A program made the position numbers and the translations under genes. 33,694 nt of DNA from Microcystis elabens FACHB-917 (GTDB taxonomy: Bacteria > Cyanobacteriota > Cyanobacteriia > PCC-6307 > Cyanobiaceae): contig NZ_JACJSZ010000035.1 of the NCBI RefSeq assembly GCF_014698445.1, forward strand, positions 1-33,694, written 5' to 3'. The notes beneath the pieces were generated by a model. That model did no database searches. It had not been told where the DNA came from and worked only from the letters and a program-made list of their open reading frames with translations. Positions 15,825 through 31,818 of this stretch are shown here, piece by piece; position 1 is the first letter of the stretch, and each line of letters opens with the position of its first letter.

Positions 15825-16057
15825 GGCACTGGTTCGTCGGGGGCGCGGGTGATCAGGGGCGCCTCGATCTCCTCCTGCAGGGGGGTGATCGCCGCCTCCC
15901 GGGAGCGCAGCAGCAGCTGGGTGAGGCGGGCGATGGCCCCTTCGCCCAGGTCCTGCTCGCCGATGCGGTCGAAGGCCCGGCGGTAGAGATCCTCGAGCTC
16001 CTCGATCAGACCCTCCCGCACCCCGCGCATGGCCTGGCGCTGCTCCTCCCTGCTCAT
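15821..16057 (-). CDS. Small egtD-linked protein (hercynine metabolism small protein type)
   Basis: A 78-residue acidic helical protein starting at ATG 16057 (MSREEQRQAMRGVREGLIEE). Repeated hydrophobic spacing (LEDLYRRAFDRIGEQDLGEG, ARLTQLLLRSREAAITPLQE) suggests two amphipathic helices. The ATG overlaps the egtD stop by four bases and its own stop overlaps the next ATG by four, so three genes are chained by ATGA junctions. No domain with known function is recognised. It matches the position of the gene that I remember being named 'hercynine metabolism small protein' in related genomes. Confidence 0.8.
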   Translation of the reverse strand: MSREEQRQAMRGVREGLIEELEDLYRRAFDRIGEQDLGEGAIARLTQLLLRSREAAITPLQEEIEAPLITRAPDEPVP

Positions 16058-17025
16058 GGCTCGCTCCGGTGCTGTTCCGAGTCTGCCTGCACAAGCAGAT
16101 GCAGACAGACATCGCCGGCGGCATCGCTCCAGCGGCCTGCGCCCTCCCAGCCCGCTGCGGCGGCCAGGGCCAGGAAGGACTCGGGGGTGTACTTGTGGCT
16201 GTACTCGGTGATCAGGGGCTCGCCGGCCGCGAACGGCCAGCAGCGTCCCGCCAGGTGCACCTCCAGGTCGCGGCGGCTCACCAGGGCCATGGCGATGCGG
16301 GACTGGCGGGCGTCCCACCAGGCCCGGTAGTCGAAGTCGTCGGGGTGGAAATCACCCGCCAGATCCCGGTTCAGCCGGGTCAGCAGGTTGCGGGCGAAGG
16401 CCTCCGACCAGCCGGCGGCGTCGTTGTAGGCCGCCTCCAGCCGCTCCACCGCCTTGGGCTGGTCGACGCCGATCAGCAGCCGGCTTCCCGGCCCCAGCAG
16501 GCGGCGGAACTGCCGCAGCAGGTCCCGGGCGCCGGCGGGATCGAAGTTGCCGATCGAGCTGCCCGGGTAGAAACCCAGCCGGCGGTGGCCCTCCAGGGCG
16601 GGGTGGTCGGGCAGGCGCTCCAGGCGGCTGTAGTCGCAGCAGATGCCGAGCACCGGCGGATCGGGATGGCGTTGCTGCAGGGCCCGGCAGGCGGGGGCCA
16701 GGTGGTCGGCGCTGATGTCGAGGGCCACGTAGGCGGCGGGCCGCAGGGCGTCCAGCAGGGGGCTCACCTTGCGGGCGCTGCCGGCCCCGAATTCCACCAC
16801 CACCCCTGGACCCAGGGCGGCGGCCAGCTCCGGCGCCCGCGCCTCCAGCAGGGCCGTTTCGGTGCGGGTGAGGCCGTACTCCGGCTGCGCGCAGATCGCC
16901 TCGAACAGGCGGGAACCCTCGGCGTCGTACAGCAGCCAGGCAGGCAGTTGCCTGGGCTGGCGGGCCATGCCGTCGACCACCACCCGGGCCATGTCGGCCG
17001 GCTCGGGATGCAGATCGATCAACAT
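16054..17025 (-). CDS. egtD: L-histidine N-alpha-methyltransferase EgtD
   Basis: SAM-dependent enzyme that trimethylates histidine to hercynine, the first step of ergothioneine synthesis. The 323 residues from ATG 17025 (MLIDLHPEP) match the family length. Visible: LLYDAEGSRLFEAICAQPEY and GLTRTETALLE in the N-terminal histidine-side domain; the Rossmann SAM loop VVVEFGAGSARKVSPLLDAL; LGFYPGSSIGNFDP; LLIGVDQPK; and FNR-like RNLLTRLNRDLAGDF. The start overlaps the egtB stop by seven bases. It sits second in the minus-strand operon egtB-egtD-small-coiled coil-ydcF. S-adenosylhomocysteine made here would be cleared by AhcY. Confidence 0.96.
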   Translation of the reverse strand: MLIDLHPEPADMARVVVDGMARQPRQLPAWLLYDAEGSRLFEAICAQPEYGLTRTETALLEARAPELAAALGPGVVVEFGAGSARKVSPLLDALRPAAYVALDISADHLAPACRALQQRHPDPPVLGICCDYSRLERLPDHPALEGHRRLGFYPGSSIGNFDPAGARDLLRQFRRLLGPGSRLLIGVDQPKAVERLEAAYNDAAGWSEAFARNLLTRLNRDLAGDFHPDDFDYRAWWDARQSRIAMALVSRRDLEVHLAGRCWPFAAGEPLITEYSHKYTPESFLALAAAAGWEGAGRWSDAAGDVCLHLLVQADSEQHRSEP

Positions 17026-18284
17026 GGGGTACCACTGCCGTCGTCGGCGCCGTCGCGGGCCAGCCGCAGCCCGGCGGCCATCCAGCGGCAGTGGGGTCCG
17101 AAGAAGTTGCGGTAGGTGGGGCGGGCGTGGCCCGCCGGGGTGAGGAAGCTGCTGCCGCGGAGCACGAACTGGGAGGACATGAACTTGCCGTTGTATTCCC
17201 CCACGGCGCCGGCGACGGGGCGGAAGCCCGGGTAGGGCCGGTAGGGGCTGGCGGTCCACTGCCAGAGGGCGCCGAAGGCCTGGGGCAGGGGGCGGCCACC
17301 GGGCTCGGCCGCCTCGGCCACCACCAGCTCCCATTCCGCCTCGCTGGGCAGGCGGCCGCCGCTCCAGCGGGCGAAGGCATCGGCCTCGAACCAGCTCAGG
17401 TGCCGCACGGGGGCCTGCGGATGGCGCGGCCGGCGGCCCGCCAGGGTGAACTCCCAGTCTCCGCGCCAGTAGCGCGGCGCCTCCCAGCCTCGCTGCTGCA
17501 CCATTGCCCAGCCCTCGCTCATCCACAGCTCCGGCCGCCGGTAGCCGTCGTCGGCGATGAAGGCGGCGTAGGCCGCGTTGGTGACCAGGGTCTCGGCGAG
17601 GCGGAAGGGTTCGAGCCACTGCCGGTGCCGGGGGGCCTCGTTGTCGAAGTGGAAACCGCCGCCGACGTGGCCGATCTCCCCCAGGCCGCCGGGGTGGGAG
17701 CGCCAGCCGCCGCTGACCTCCGCGGCCCCGGCTCCGGCCCCGGCCCCGGCAGGTTCGGTGCCGTAGGCGGGCTCCAGCGGGTTGCGGCTGAAGCCGTCGA
17801 GCAGATCCATCAGCAGCAGCTCCTGGTGCTGCTGCTCGTGCTGCAGCCCGAGCTCGACCAGCTCCAGCAGGGGGGCGGCGCTGCCTTCGGGGCGGCGATC
17901 CAGATCCAGCAGCAGCGCCTCCAGCCCGGCATCGACGCGCCGGCGCCAGGCGAGCACCTCGCCGATCGCCGGCCGGGTGAGCAGGCCCCGTTCGGGGCGG
18001 GGGTGGCGGCTGCCGACCGCCTCGTAATAGGAGTTGAACAGATGGCCCCAGCGGCGGTCCGGGGTCGCATGGACCGGCAGGTGGGGCTCCAGCAGGAAGG
18101 TCTCGAAGAACCAGGTGGTGTGCCCCAGGTGCCACTTCGCGGGGCTGGCATCGGCCATGCCCTGGAGGCAGAGGTCCTCGGGTTCGAGACCCTCGATCAG
18201 GCGTTCACTGTGCTCGCGGACCGCCTGGAGCCGTCGCAGGAGGCAGGTGATGTCCGCCGGCGCGTGTGCCCTGGAACCCATCAT
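17019..18284 (-). CDS. egtB: Hercynine oxygenase / sulfoxide synthase EgtB
   Basis: Non-heme iron enzyme that joins hercynine to a thiol (cysteine or gamma-glutamylcysteine) with O2. The 421-residue protein has an N-terminal DinB-like domain with HLGHTTWFFETF and the iron motif HEQQHQE, then a formylglycine-generating-enzyme-like domain with LVTNAAYAAFI, HLSWFEADAFARW, GRLPSEAEWE, GALWQWTASPY and RGSSFL. Two ATGs in tandem (18284 and 18281) follow GGAAGG; the second has better spacing. A short Ala/Gly-rich insertion (PAGAGAGAGAAEV) marks the domain linker. It is the first gene of the operon and divergent from the cysteine synthase-like gene. The thiol donor cannot be told from sequence. Confidence 0.96.
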   Translation of the reverse strand: MMGSRAHAPADITCLLRRLQAVREHSERLIEGLEPEDLCLQGMADASPAKWHLGHTTWFFETFLLEPHLPVHATPDRRWGHLFNSYYEAVGSRHPRPERGLLTRPAIGEVLAWRRRVDAGLEALLLDLDRRPEGSAAPLLELVELGLQHEQQHQELLLMDLLDGFSRNPLEPAYGTEPAGAGAGAGAAEVSGGWRSHPGGLGEIGHVGGGFHFDNEAPRHRQWLEPFRLAETLVTNAAYAAFIADDGYRRPELWMSEGWAMVQQRGWEAPRYWRGDWEFTLAGRRPRHPQAPVRHLSWFEADAFARWSGGRLPSEAEWELVVAEAAEPGGRPLPQAFGALWQWTASPYRPYPGFRPVAGAVGEYNGKFMSSQFVLRGSSFLTPAGHARPTYRNFFGPHCRWMAAGLRLARDGADDGSGTPC

Positions 18285-18327: not shown

Positions 18328-18359
18328 CCGGCCACGCAGCGATGGAGAAGGCCAGCCGC

Positions 18360-19388
18360 ATGGGAGCCCAAAGCGACGGCATGAGCACCGGGATCACCGA
18401 GGGCTTCAGCGGGGCGGTGGGCCACACGCCCCTCATCCGGCTCCATGCCCTCAGCGCCCTCACCGGCTGCGAGATCCTGGGCAAGGCGGAATTCATGAAC
18501 CCCGGCGGGTCGGTGAAGGACCGGGCCGCCCTGGGCATCCTCCAGGAGGCGGAGGCCGATGGCCGGCTGACGCCGGGGGGCACGGTGGTGGAGGGGACCG
18601 CCGGCAACACCGGCATCGGCCTCACCCATCTCTGCAATGCCCGCGGCTACCGCTGCCTGATCGTCATCCCCGAGACCCAGTCGGCGGAGAAGATCGGCCT
18701 GCTGCGCAGCCTCGGCGCCGAGGTGCGCACGGTGCCCGCCGTGCCCTACAGCGACCCGGCTAACTACGTGCGCCTCTCGGGGCGCATCGCCGAGGAGACC
18801 CCCGGCGCCGTGTGGGCCAACCAGTTCGACAACCTCGCCAACCGGCGGGCCCATTACGGCAGCACCGGCCCGGAGATCTGGCAGCAGACCGGGGGCCGGC
18901 TGGATGCCTGGGTGGCCGCCACCGGCACCGGCGGCACCTACGCCGGGGTGGCCCTCTACCTCAAGGAACAGGACCCCCGGATCCGCTGCGTCCTGGCGGA
19001 TCCCTGCGGCAGCGCCCTCTACAGCTGGGCCACCGAGGGCACCCTGAAGAGCGAGGGCAACTCGATCACCGAGGGAATCGGCAACAGCCGCGTCACCGCC
19101 AACCTGGAGGGGGCGCCCATCGACGACGCGGTGCGCATCGACGACCCGATGGCCCTGCGCACCATTTACGGCCTGCTGTGGCAGGAGGGCCTGTTCATGG
19201 GCGGGTCGGTGGGGATCAACGTGGCGGCGGCGGTGGAGACGGCCCGGCGGCTGGGGCCCGGCCACAGCATCGTCACCGTGCTGTGCGACAGCGGCGATCG
19301 CTACCGCTCCCGCCTCTACGACCAGGCGTGGCTGGCGGGCCGCGGCCTCGAGCAGCCCCAGCGCAGCGGGGCCGCCCTCATCCCATGA
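18360..19388 (+). CDS. Cysteine synthase-like PLP enzyme (O-acetylserine sulfhydrylase family)
   Basis: A fold-type II PLP enzyme of about 342 residues. The ATG at 18360 is preferred because GGAGAAGG ends eight bases upstream; ATGs at 18342 and 18381 are alternatives. Motifs: IGHTPLIRL-like GAVGHTPLIRL; NPGGSVKDRAALGIL, whose Lys forms the Schiff base; EGTAGNTGIGLTHLCNARGY, the phosphate and substrate loop; ATGTGGTYAGVALYL; and GGSVGINVAAA with the C-terminal VTVLCDSGDRYRS. The loop reads EGTAGNTG where typical CysK has TSGNTG, so this is a divergent subgroup and the exact substrate is uncertain. It is divergent from egtB, and its stop overlaps the next ATG by four bases. Confidence 0.88.
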   Translation: MGAQSDGMSTGITEGFSGAVGHTPLIRLHALSALTGCEILGKAEFMNPGGSVKDRAALGILQEAEADGRLTPGGTVVEGTAGNTGIGLTHLCNARGYRCLIVIPETQSAEKIGLLRSLGAEVRTVPAVPYSDPANYVRLSGRIAEETPGAVWANQFDNLANRRAHYGSTGPEIWQQTGGRLDAWVAATGTGGTYAGVALYLKEQDPRIRCVLADPCGSALYSWATEGTLKSEGNSITEGIGNSRVTANLEGAPIDDAVRIDDPMALRTIYGLLWQEGLFMGGSVGINVAAAVETARRLGPGHSIVTVLCDSGDRYRSRLYDQAWLAGRGLEQPQRSGAALIP

Positions 19389-21553
19389 GCGCCGCCCAGG
19401 GCCAGGTGATCGGCGGTCGCTACCGGCTGGAGCGCCGTCTCGGAGCGGAGACGGGCGGGCCCCAGGGGGAGCTGTGGCTGGCGAGCGACCAGCTGGCCGC
19501 CGATGCGCCCGTGGCCCTGCGCCGCATCGGGCCGGAGCAGGACCAGACCCGGGCCCGGGAGCTGTGGTCGCGGCTGCAGGGGGTGCTCCATCCCCAGGTG
19601 CCCCGCATCGGTGCCGTGATCGAGGAGGGCGACCAGCTCTGGCTGGTGCGGGAGTGGCAGGCGGGACGCACCTACCAGCAGCTGCTGGATCTGCGGGCCG
19701 AGCGCCAGCTGGTGTTCGGTGCCGGGGAGGTGCTGCTGCTGCTGCGCCAGCTGCTGCCGGTGCTCGCCGCCCTGCACAGCCAGGATCTGCTGCACGGCGA
19801 CCTGAGCCCCGCCAACCTGCTGCGCCGTGACAGCGACGGCCTGCCGGTGCCGCTCGATTTCGGCCTGGTGCGCGGCACCGCCGGCAGCGGCACCGGGGAG
19901 CGGGCGCTGGGCGCCACCCCGGGCTATGCCCCGCCGGAGCTGGCCCGGGGGGAGCCCGCCCAGCCCTGGATGGATCTGCACGCCCTCGGGGTGGTGTCCC
20001 TGGTGCTGCTGAGCGGGGACGGGCCGGAGCGCCTGCTCGATCCGGCGACGATGCAGTGGCGCTGGCCGGCGGCCCTGGAGCACGAGCCGGAGCTGCTGCG
20101 CCACCTGCAGCGTCTGCTCAGCCGCCACCCCGAGGAGCGCTTCGCCTCCGCCGGCCAGGCCCTGGTGGCCTTCCAGTCGCTGGCGATGCCCGACAGCACC
20201 GGCCCGGTGCCGCGGGCCGACCGCACGGTGGTACTGGTGCCGGAGGCCGCCGCGCCGCCGCCCCTGCCCCAGCCCCCGCAAGCCCCCCCTGGGGGATCCG
20301 AACCGGCCCGGGAGTGGCGTCCGGAGGAGGTCGCCGGCCAGGGGGCACCGATCGGCTCCGGCCCACCGCCCCCGGCGGAGCGGGTGGAGCCCCAGCTGCC
20401 GCCGCGGGCCGCGGCCACCCCACCACCGCCGCCGCCGGCCGCCGTGGCCGTCACCGACAGCGTGCGGCGCCGCCAGGAGGAACGGGAGGAGGAGGCCGAG
20501 GGGGGCTTCTGGCCGGTGCTGATCGCCCTGGTGCTCTCGGCGGTGGTCGGCACCGCGGTGGGCTGGTGGTGGCTGAGCCGAGGCAAGGTGGCCGCCCCGG
20601 CCCCCGGCGGGCAGAGCGAGCTCCCCAGCAGCCTGCCGCCCTCGGAGGTGGATCGGCGCCAGCAGCTGCTCAACCGCCTGCGGGCGATGCAGGTGGACCG
20701 GGCCTGGTTCCTGAGCCTGGTGGATGCGGCCCTGCTGGCCCAGTACCCGGAGCGCAACGGCCGCCTGCCCTCCGACAGCCTGGAGGATGCGCCGCTGCGG
20801 CGGGTGTGGAACGAACTGGCCGAGGAATGGCTGGCGCGGGTGGAGCAGTTGCCCCTGCCCCTGCGTCGCCGGCTGGGCAGCTTCAGCGCCAGCGACTGGG
20901 AACAGCGGCAGGGCGCCTTCGTGCGCCAGGGGCTGAGCCCGGCGGTGCTGCGGGAGCTGGTGTCGGCCAGCGTCCAGAACCTGCTCCCCAGCCGCGCCTC
21001 CCAGGCGATCCCCCCCGAACCCTTCCGCCAGATCTGGTACGCCGCTGCCGACCTGACCCTGGAGAACCTGCGGATCGAACCGATCGAGGCCCCCTCCGGC
21101 ACCGCCCAGGTGCTGACGGCGGAGGTGCCCGCCAACGGGGCGCGGCTGTTCCCGATCCGCCTGCCCGCCGGCCACGGCCTCGCCCTTGGGGTCAGCGGCT
21201 CGCCGCTGCTGCAGATGAGCGTCTATGGGGCCGGGGGCACCCAGCTGGAGCCGAGGGGGCCGCTGCGGGTGGTCACCCTCGATGGCCAGAAGAGTTCGCC
21301 GGTGCAGCTGCTGCTCACCAACGACGGCGTCGCCCCGGCCCTGATCCGCCTGTCGCTGCGGGCCGATCCGCCGGCCCCCACCCCACCGCCCCCTCCGGAG
21401 GCGCCACCGGCCCCCGAGGAGCCCCAGGACACGGCGCCCGCGCCCGACCCGTCGACGCCCGTCCCAACCCCGGCTCCTGCCGCCCCGGCCCCCGCCGCCC
21501 CGGCGGCGCCGGCCCCGCCCCCTGCCGCGCCGGCGCCGCCCACCAACCCCTGA
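19385..21553 (+). CDS. Atypical Ser/Thr protein kinase-like membrane protein
   Basis: A 722-residue protein from ATG 19385, overlapping the upstream stop (ATGA). Residues 10-270 have a protein kinase fold: GGRYRLERRLG, VALRRI, LLHGDLSPANLL, LDFGLVRG, GATPGYAPPE and HALGVVSLVLLSG. The catalytic Asp (139), Asn (144) and DFG (158-160) are present, but the strand-3 Lys position is Arg (46), HRD reads HGD, and the glycine loop is irregular. A Pro-rich linker follows, then one transmembrane helix (about 375-397, FWPVLIALVLSAVVGTAVGW). The outer part has a helical region and a beta-rich region ending in a long Pro/Ala tail. It may be a weak kinase or a pseudokinase sensor. The ligand and targets are unknown. 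Confidence 0.83.
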   Translation: MSAAQGQVIGGRYRLERRLGAETGGPQGELWLASDQLAADAPVALRRIGPEQDQTRARELWSRLQGVLHPQVPRIGAVIEEGDQLWLVREWQAGRTYQQLLDLRAERQLVFGAGEVLLLLRQLLPVLAALHSQDLLHGDLSPANLLRRDSDGLPVPLDFGLVRGTAGSGTGERALGATPGYAPPELARGEPAQPWMDLHALGVVSLVLLSGDGPERLLDPATMQWRWPAALEHEPELLRHLQRLLSRHPEERFASAGQALVAFQSLAMPDSTGPVPRADRTVVLVPEAAAPPPLPQPPQAPPGGSEPAREWRPEEVAGQGAPIGSGPPPPAERVEPQLPPRAAATPPPPPPAAVAVTDSVRRRQEEREEEAEGGFWPVLIALVLSAVVGTAVGWWWLSRGKVAAPAPGGQSELPSSLPPSEVDRRQQLLNRLRAMQVDRAWFLSLVDAALLAQYPERNGRLPSDSLEDAPLRRVWNELAEEWLARVEQLPLPLRRRLGSFSASDWEQRQGAFVRQGLSPAVLRELVSASVQNLLPSRASQAIPPEPFRQIWYAAADLTLENLRIEPIEAPSGTAQVLTAEVPANGARLFPIRLPAGHGLALGVSGSPLLQMSVYGAGGTQLEPRGPLRVVTLDGQKSSPVQLLLTNDGVAPALIRLSLRADPPAPTPPPPPEAPPAPEEPQDTAPAPDPSTPVPTPAPAAPAPAAPAAPAPPPAAPAPPTNP

Positions 21554-21589: not shown

Positions 21590-22090
21590 TCAGAGCCGGG
21601 CGACGGCGGCCCGGGTCTCCTTGGCGATCTGCTTGTTCTTCTCGTCCTGGCGCTTGTCGTGCAGCTTGCGGCCCTTGCCCAGGCCGATGGTCATCTTGAT
21701 CCAGGACCCCTTCAGGTGCAGGTTGAGGGGGATCAGGGTGAGGCCCTTCTGGTCGAGGGCGACGCGCAGCTTGTCGATCTCGCGGCGGTGGGCCAGCAGC
21801 TTGCGCACCCGCAACGGCTCGTGGTTGAAGAAGCGACCGGCGTGGCTGTGGGGGGAGATGTGGACGTTGTGGAGCTGGATCTCGCCGTTGCGGATCAGGC
21901 AGAAGCCGTCGCGCAGGTTCACCTGGCCGGCCCGGATCGATTTCACCTCGGTGCCGAGCAGTTCGATGCCGGTTTCCAGGGTTTCGAGGATCTCGTACTG
22001 GTGCCGGGCCAGGCGGTTGTCGGCCAGCAGCCGGTTGGCCGGGTCGGCACTCTTGGCGCCACCGCCTTTCCTACCTGGCCCTTTCGCCAT
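21590..22090 (-). CDS. smpB: SsrA-binding protein SmpB
   Basis: Partner of tmRNA in trans-translation, rescuing stalled ribosomes. The 166-residue protein has the oligonucleotide-binding beta barrel signatures [64 protein letters not shown] and [20 protein letters not shown]. The C-terminal [20 protein letters not shown] is the tail that mimics mRNA in the decoding channel. It is convergent with the kinase gene (36 bases between) and its 5' side faces the AT-richer gtr block. In the picocyanobacterial genomes I recall, smpB and ruvB are close neighbours, which suggests the block between them was inserted. Confidence 0.97.
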
Positions 22091-30252: not shown

Positions 30253-30273
30253 GATCTTGCTAGCGTCAGTGGG

Positions 30274-31818
<1,545 letters not shown>

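Follow-up and report, generated by a model that had tools for sequence, protein, structure and literature searches.

Can a membrane receptor whose kinase-like domain lacks the ATP-anchoring lysine still work as a kinase and, if it cannot, which of its parts is the cell keeping? This question is raised by a gene for a 722-residue protein of the cyanobacterium Microcystis elabens FACHB-917 (family Cyanobiaceae), which lies within a stretch of 33,694 nucleotides (contig NZ_JACJSZ010000035.1, positions 1 to 33,694), referred to below as the window. A first-pass annotation, made from the DNA letters without database searches, had left it as either a pseudokinase sensor or a lineage-specific variant kinase. 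Our analysis favours a pseudokinase over an active kinase, because the αC Glu is found in none of 133 family sequences, the catalytic core has changed further in several lineages, and the kinase domain is missing altogether in six rows of the comparison. In our view the product is probably a pseudokinase receptor with a single membrane pass, conserved for what it does outside the cytoplasm. Sequence comparison relates it to membrane Ser/Thr kinases of cyanobacteria in which the same outer domain is joined to an intact kinase.

A kinase fold with an altered ATP site

Pfam Pkinase matches the window protein with 65 bits, against a cut-off of 31.7. An AlphaFold2 model of this domain, built on 61 aligned sequences, has a mean predicted local distance difference test score (pLDDT) of 88.4; among solved structures, the kinase domain of mycobacterial PknA matches it best (Z 26.1, 249 aligned residues, root-mean-square deviation 2.6). 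By profile match and model, the domain has a Hanks-type (eukaryotic-like) Ser/Thr kinase fold.

In the active site, Arg46 takes the place of the β3 Lys in a strand reading VALRRI, the HRD motif is HGD (residues 137-139), and the glycine loop, LGAETGGPQGELW, is degenerate and does not conform to GxGxxG; Asp139, Asn144 and DFG (residues 158-160) are present. This agrees with the first-pass annotation, which had described an Arg in strand 3, an irregular glycine loop and HGD alongside a kept catalytic Asp, Asn and DFG. An additional observation is the lack of the αC Glu, whose position is occupied by Leu64 and followed in the alignment by a deletion of four residues before 'HPQ'. Among the elements of a competent Hanks kinase, the β3 Lys, the αC Glu and GxGxxG are absent, and the Asp, Asn and DFG are retained. 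There is no Lys anywhere in residues 1-275, which rules out, for the window protein, a relocated Lys as in WNK; a conserved Lys elsewhere in the strand, the finding by which the earlier proposal could have been overturned, is not there.

The altered site among relatives

It had been suggested that an alignment of picocyanobacterial orthologues would tell whether Arg46 is fixed or unique to this sequence. We counted residues in 133 rows of the window's GTDB family (f1), comprising the window and 132 others drawn from 149 distinct outer-domain rows. Left out were the window's own copy (L004), six rows cut by contig or locus ends (L041, L045, L123, L088, L093, L114), two with frame breaks (L026, L116), two removed by an upstream-length filter though their kinase part, with Arg, is present (L150, L153), and six without a kinase part (L054, L055, L056, L166, L167, L223). 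Position 46 proved to be nearly fixed as Arg (129 of 133; Thr in two, His and Leu in one each, Lys in none), and this near-fixation excludes chance as the origin of the window's Arg, as well as the possibility that Arg is confined to the window sequence. At position 64 there are 121 Leu, 10 Met, 2 Ile and no Glu. The kinase domain is free of Lys in 80 of 132 rows (a set that includes L004 and a meaningless row for L223), so that in those, as in the window, no relocated Lys could rescue the site. Both the length of the glycine loop and the number of its glycines vary across the family.

Other parts of the core have been kept more often. Asp139 is invariant (133/133), even in rows without the Asn or the DFG region; Asn144 is present in 122 rows and lost in 11; Asp158 is found in 129 and is absent or replaced by Glu in four; the position of Phe159 holds Gly in six; and position 160 is Gly in 130 and a gap in three. 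The individual departures include HGDVNPRH with DGG (L052, L160), CGD or CAD without DFG (L048, L227, L228), replacement of the Asn by Thr or Ala (L053, L162), DIG (L037, L257) and HTD with DVG (L051), and some of them are mild. In the aligned sequences, then, the ATP-gripping elements (glycine loop, β3 Lys and αC Glu) are gone from the family, and the kinase fold and the catalytic Asp have stayed. The window protein shows all the traits of this proposed family: Arg46, no αC Glu together with the four-residue deletion, HGD, the shared outer domain and an egtB/smpB/ruvB neighbourhood.

Two further observations concern broken copies and a doubtful source. In L026/L071 (Synechococcus sp. BO 8801) the kinase and outer-domain parts of L026 lie in different frames, and in L116 (GFB01) the kinase part of the frame does not align; each may be a real break or a sequencing error. 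L095 (CALPNT020000037.1), titled as a metagenome-assembled genome of Bifidobacterium breve, carries the cyanobacterial gene studied here, with an outer domain 77% identical, and its title is probably wrong.

Intact kinases outside the family

Of the 291 genomes of the class, 149 match a profile of the outer domain: 20 belong to the window's family and 129 do not. From 27 of these 129 genomes, 28 comparison frames were read. The Lys, the αC Glu, HR, the Asn and DFG are found in all 28, the catalytic Asp in 27. The remaining frame (L197, genome G209) reads HRN for HRD with Lys and Glu intact, and may represent a separate pseudokinase. These membrane Hanks kinases (for example those of G034 and G112, of 724 and 746 residues) share with the window protein the order of kinase, linker, transmembrane segment and helical plus β-sandwich outer domain; they differ in that the frames read possess the Lys and the αC Glu, both of which the window's family lacks. 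In the loss of Lys and Glu, the window's family therefore seems to share a derived state. No copy outside the family was accepted as lacking the kinase: G320 and G327 do encode an intact kinase, a short way upstream and in a different frame, and in G352 and G120 the contig ends within the frame.

Lineages without the kinase domain

In six rows of the window's family the kinase domain is absent, and the transmembrane segment and outer domain are kept. Three (L054, L055, L056) come from genomes of 1.5-1.9 Mb (G063, G066, G091) and three (L166, L167, L223) from genomes of 2.1-2.3 Mb (G294, G321, G437); the long frame of L223 runs upstream antisense to egtB. The gene is accompanied by egtB, smpB and ruvB in G063, G066 and G294, by smpB and ruvB in G091 and G321, and by egtB and smpB in G437, where the stretch is short. 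These shared neighbours support the orthology of all six. Relocation of the kinase part within the six genomes was rejected after a search at E 0.001 returned no match, although that search had no positive control and G066 is 77% complete; in each genome a single frame, of 621-679 residues, matches PF00069 at a score under the cut-off.

On the outer-domain tree, kinase absence requires three changes, and core change or loss six. A single clade for the six rows is rejected (approximately unbiased test, p 0.003), and the tree without L055 and L056 gives three and seven changes, respectively. Among the genomes listed as having no match to the outer domain at E 0.001 are 11 of genus g32, of 1.6-1.7 Mb. 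Genome G357 (L274, L275) retains a remnant, a fragment corresponding to residues 3-109 of the kinase region with the last 30 positions of the outer-domain profile nearby; most of the gene is missing, and the adjoining smpB is also matched only in part. Three pattern matches in viral sequences were found, and none is a relative.

Selection along the protein

The ratio of nonsynonymous to synonymous substitution rates (dN/dS) was pooled from 18 close, mutually independent pairs of named relatives, with L071 and L116 dropped. It was 0.139 and 0.128 for the two kinase lobes, 0.429 for the linker, 0.077 for the transmembrane stretch, and 0.061 and 0.052 for the helical and β-sandwich outer domains. 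These values indicate that the kinase-like domain is under purifying selection and that the outer part is about twice as tightly constrained.

The extracytoplasmic part

One transmembrane helix leading to a large extracytoplasmic part had been annotated at the outset, and hydrophobicity bears this out. The most hydrophobic 19-residue spans start at residues 373-379, indicating one membrane segment; the next, weaker one (start 109) falls within the kinase domain. A conserved juxtamembrane motif, AEGxxWPV, stands just before this segment and runs into it. The extracytoplasmic part comprises about 270 residues.

The statement that this part contains no known domain holds with respect to sequence. 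Pfam returned no match better than E 0.043 for the window protein and, for the outer parts of 53 relatives, a best E of 0.0046, to unrelated families; the family profile gave five matches among PDB sequences, the best at E 0.065. In its predicted structure, however, the distal half resembles known folds. The structure prediction proposed earlier yielded a domain of seven helices and a β-sandwich, with a mean pLDDT of 85.3 from an alignment of 53 sequences, and structure comparison placed the sandwich near the GOLD domain of TMED1 (Z 13.5), PliG (11.7) and PPC (10.3), with CUB, collagen-binding and clostridial receptor-binding domains also near Z 10. The distal half is thus predicted to be a β-sandwich of the GOLD/PPC/CUB-like kind; since similar scores are reached by several folds, the comparison neither singles out one family nor points to a function. 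It hardly probed the helical half. A PASTA receptor kinase (PknB/StkP) can be dismissed: the Pfam scans of the window protein and its relatives contain no PASTA repeats, the outer part has no acceptable Pfam match, and NCBIfam PknB_PASTA_kin matches the kinase part only (52 bits, cut-off 450).

The locus

The features are collected in Table 1. The 4-base overlap with the cysteine synthase-like gene was confirmed: the ATG is shared with the TGA of that gene as ATGA. Divergently from these two genes, at 16054-18284 on the minus strand, a Methyltransf_33 (histidine-specific methyltransferase) gene adjoins one for an FGE-sulfatase/DinB_2 protein, which we take to be an EgtD/EgtB-like ergothioneine pair. 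Farther along the window, a thiamine pyrophosphate (TPP) riboswitch was detected at 30269-30385 on the plus strand (63.8 bits).

Table 1. Features of the putative pseudokinase receptor gene and its neighbours (positions in the window)
Feature	Position	Strand	Basis or remark
Putative pseudokinase receptor gene, 722 aa	19385..21553	+	ATG at 19385, stop ends at 21553; N-terminus inferred cytoplasmic
Pseudokinase domain, residues 12-263	19418..20173	+	Pfam, AlphaFold2, structure comparison
Arg46 at the ATP-anchoring β3 Lys position	19520..19522	+	Strand reads VALRRI
Leu64 at the αC Glu position	19574..19576	+	Alignment
HGD (137-139) instead of HRD	19793..19801	+	Gly138 replaces Arg
DFG, residues 158-160	19856..19864	+	Intact in the window protein; changed or missing in several lineages
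Pro/Ala-rich linker, residues 275-360	20207..20464	+	Fast evolving, dN/dS 0.43
Transmembrane segment, residues about 373-396	20501..20572	+	Hydrophobicity
Extracytoplasmic helical domain, residues 419-560, seven predicted helices	20639..21064	+	dN/dS 0.06
Extracytoplasmic β-sandwich, residues 571-663	21095..21373	+	Structure comparison gives a GOLD/PPC/CUB-like fold
Pro/Ala-rich C-terminal tail, residues 664-722	21374..21550	+	Sequence
Upstream gene for a pyridoxal phosphate (PLP)-dependent enzyme (PALP, cysteine synthase-like)	18342..19388	+	Stop overlaps the pseudokinase start
smpB, convergent downstream neighbour, synteny anchor	21590..22090	-	Locus comparison

Discussion

The most likely explanation of these results is that the cytosolic domain has ceased to phosphorylate substrates and now has a binding or regulatory role, and that the conserved work would fall to the transmembrane segment together with the helical and β-sandwich domain beyond it, in the periplasm or the thylakoid lumen. 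On this view, loss of the kinase domain alone could be tolerated in some lineages. The relatives that retain the anchor and the outer domain without a kinase domain suggest that it is the outer part on which the cell probably depends. It should be added that in two (G072 and G207) of 10 chosen genomes that were searched, no protein other than the pseudokinase matches PF00069 above the cut-off, so that there it cannot act by steering another Hanks kinase that exceeds this cut-off.

A non-catalytic nucleotide sensor, which would bind ATP by means of Arg46, Asn144 and DFG and pass a change of shape across the membrane in the manner of KSR or DYD proteins, would itself be a particular kind of pseudokinase, and this reading overlaps with the explanation we favour. 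It is conceivable though rather unlikely. Arg46, Asp139, Asn144 and DFG do occur together in most family rows, and ATP has been modelled in the β3-Arg pseudokinases DYD and ActPs2 in a review (PMC12599244). However, the degenerate glycine loop and the lost αC Glu argue against tight binding, and the Gly at position 160 leaves the family without a second Asp after DF of the DYD kind.

That the protein is a lineage-specific kinase still active today, using Arg46, with Asp139, Asn144 and DFG in catalysis and perhaps activated by a partner, appears improbable. To inactivate a kinase, the β3 Lys is classically exchanged for Arg; here the Lys and its partner Glu are both missing, the window domain has no Lys that could stand in, and the gene persists while its core changes in several lineages. 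Such an enzyme would nevertheless fit the conservation of Asp139, Asn144 and Asp158, the purifying selection on the kinase region and its fold, which is predicted to be complete, and activity has been reported for SpkE, an unusual cyanobacterial Ser/Thr kinase (STK) (PMC11863333). More improbable still is a relic, that is, a kinase domain decaying without function in the window's organism, as might be read from the repeated core changes and domain losses, the G357 remnant, the frame breaks in L026/L071 and L116 and the lack of constraint on Lys, since dN/dS in its lobes is 0.13-0.14 over the close pairs and a full kinase fold is predicted.

Several observations weigh against a pseudokinase receptor maintained for its outer part. 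The retention of Asp139 in every row, and of Asn and DFG in most, would suit nucleotide binding or weak activity. SpkE was first reported inactive (PMC2176072) and later active (PMC11863333). When dN/dS was computed over 2190 pairs, at saturated dS, the kinase lobes (0.31-0.33) were not separated from the β-sandwich (0.34; helical domain 0.24). The number of kinase losses is soft, as the branches of L054-L056 are long, and the starred branches force only two losses (in a count with L223 scored as broken). Moreover, base composition may have contributed to the change from Lys to Arg: the gene has 77% G+C and the window 69%, and only five family rows fall below 60%. These five have four Arg, one His and no Lys, a state which they may have inherited. 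Drift driven by G+C was rejected as the full explanation, both for this retention of Arg or His at lower G+C and because it leaves the lost αC Glu and the deletion unexplained. A second Hanks kinase of the window's genome (L001, G000:C105), with VAVKRLK and HRD, lies on a 4.6 kb contig and is possibly acquired or foreign; it was dropped as a Lys-keeping control of composition because its DNA has 50% G+C.

The family resembles other membrane pseudokinases with a β3 Arg and falls outside the definitions of DYD and CP1. According to the review (PMC12599244), DYD pseudokinases are likewise membrane-associated, with β3 Arg and no αC Glu; they occur in Actinobacteria and firmicutes and have DYD for DFG, the second Asp being proposed to pair with the Arg, a feature at odds with Gly or a gap at position 160. 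ActPs2 proteins share the β3 Arg and a transmembrane segment C-terminal to the kinase, but differ by their published motifs, with the catalytic Asp changed to Asn, DFG mostly deleted, large insertions and a mainly actinobacterial distribution (PMC12599244). CP1, a cyanobacterial and proteobacterial family with a COG3899 domain and no transmembrane segment (PMC12599244), does not fit a protein with a membrane-like segment and no ATPase domain among its Pfam matches. EssB/YukC and MviN, compared by description, are membrane proteins with a pseudokinase domain but with other outer parts and other functions (PMC12599244). Neither this review nor PMC11863333, in the parts at hand, describes the window's family, and we found no description of it as a pseudokinase family in the literature consulted on pseudokinases in cyanobacteria, Synechococcus and Prochlorococcus.

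Members of the family have probably been counted before as kinases. A 2007 survey (PMC2176072) lists single STKs in MIT9313, CC9902, CC9605 and CC9311 (PMT0154, Syncc9902_0160, Syncc9605_0116 and sync_0122), whose deviations from the canonical motifs were 'deemed tolerable', and no STK in four Prochlorococcus strains and WH8102, which are treated as simply lacking one. These marine STKs, each the only one of its genome, probably belong to the window's family; for PMT0154, this survey was the only literature found. Near them the survey places Synechocystis SpkE (slr1443), which misses conserved residues including the catalytic Asp (PMC2176072), whereas that Asp is invariant in the window's family.

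A broader scenario can be put forward only tentatively, and we hold it to be somewhat short of an even chance: at the base of the picocyanobacteria, a cyanobacterial receptor kinase would have become a pseudokinase-capped protein of the envelope or thylakoid lumen, from which the cytosolic domain was amputated several times, the outer domain acting as an independent factor and, in some genomes, without a partner Hanks kinase over the Pfam cut-off. Hanks-type kinases counted in picocyanobacteria may, accordingly, not be kinases. The intact kinase, the conserved pseudokinase, the altered core, the transmembrane segment with the outer domain only, and the lost gene form a natural series, in which it can be tested whether the selected function of a receptor kinase resides in its inner or its outer half. 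The finding points to an undescribed outer domain that was retained after the signalling head had been shed.

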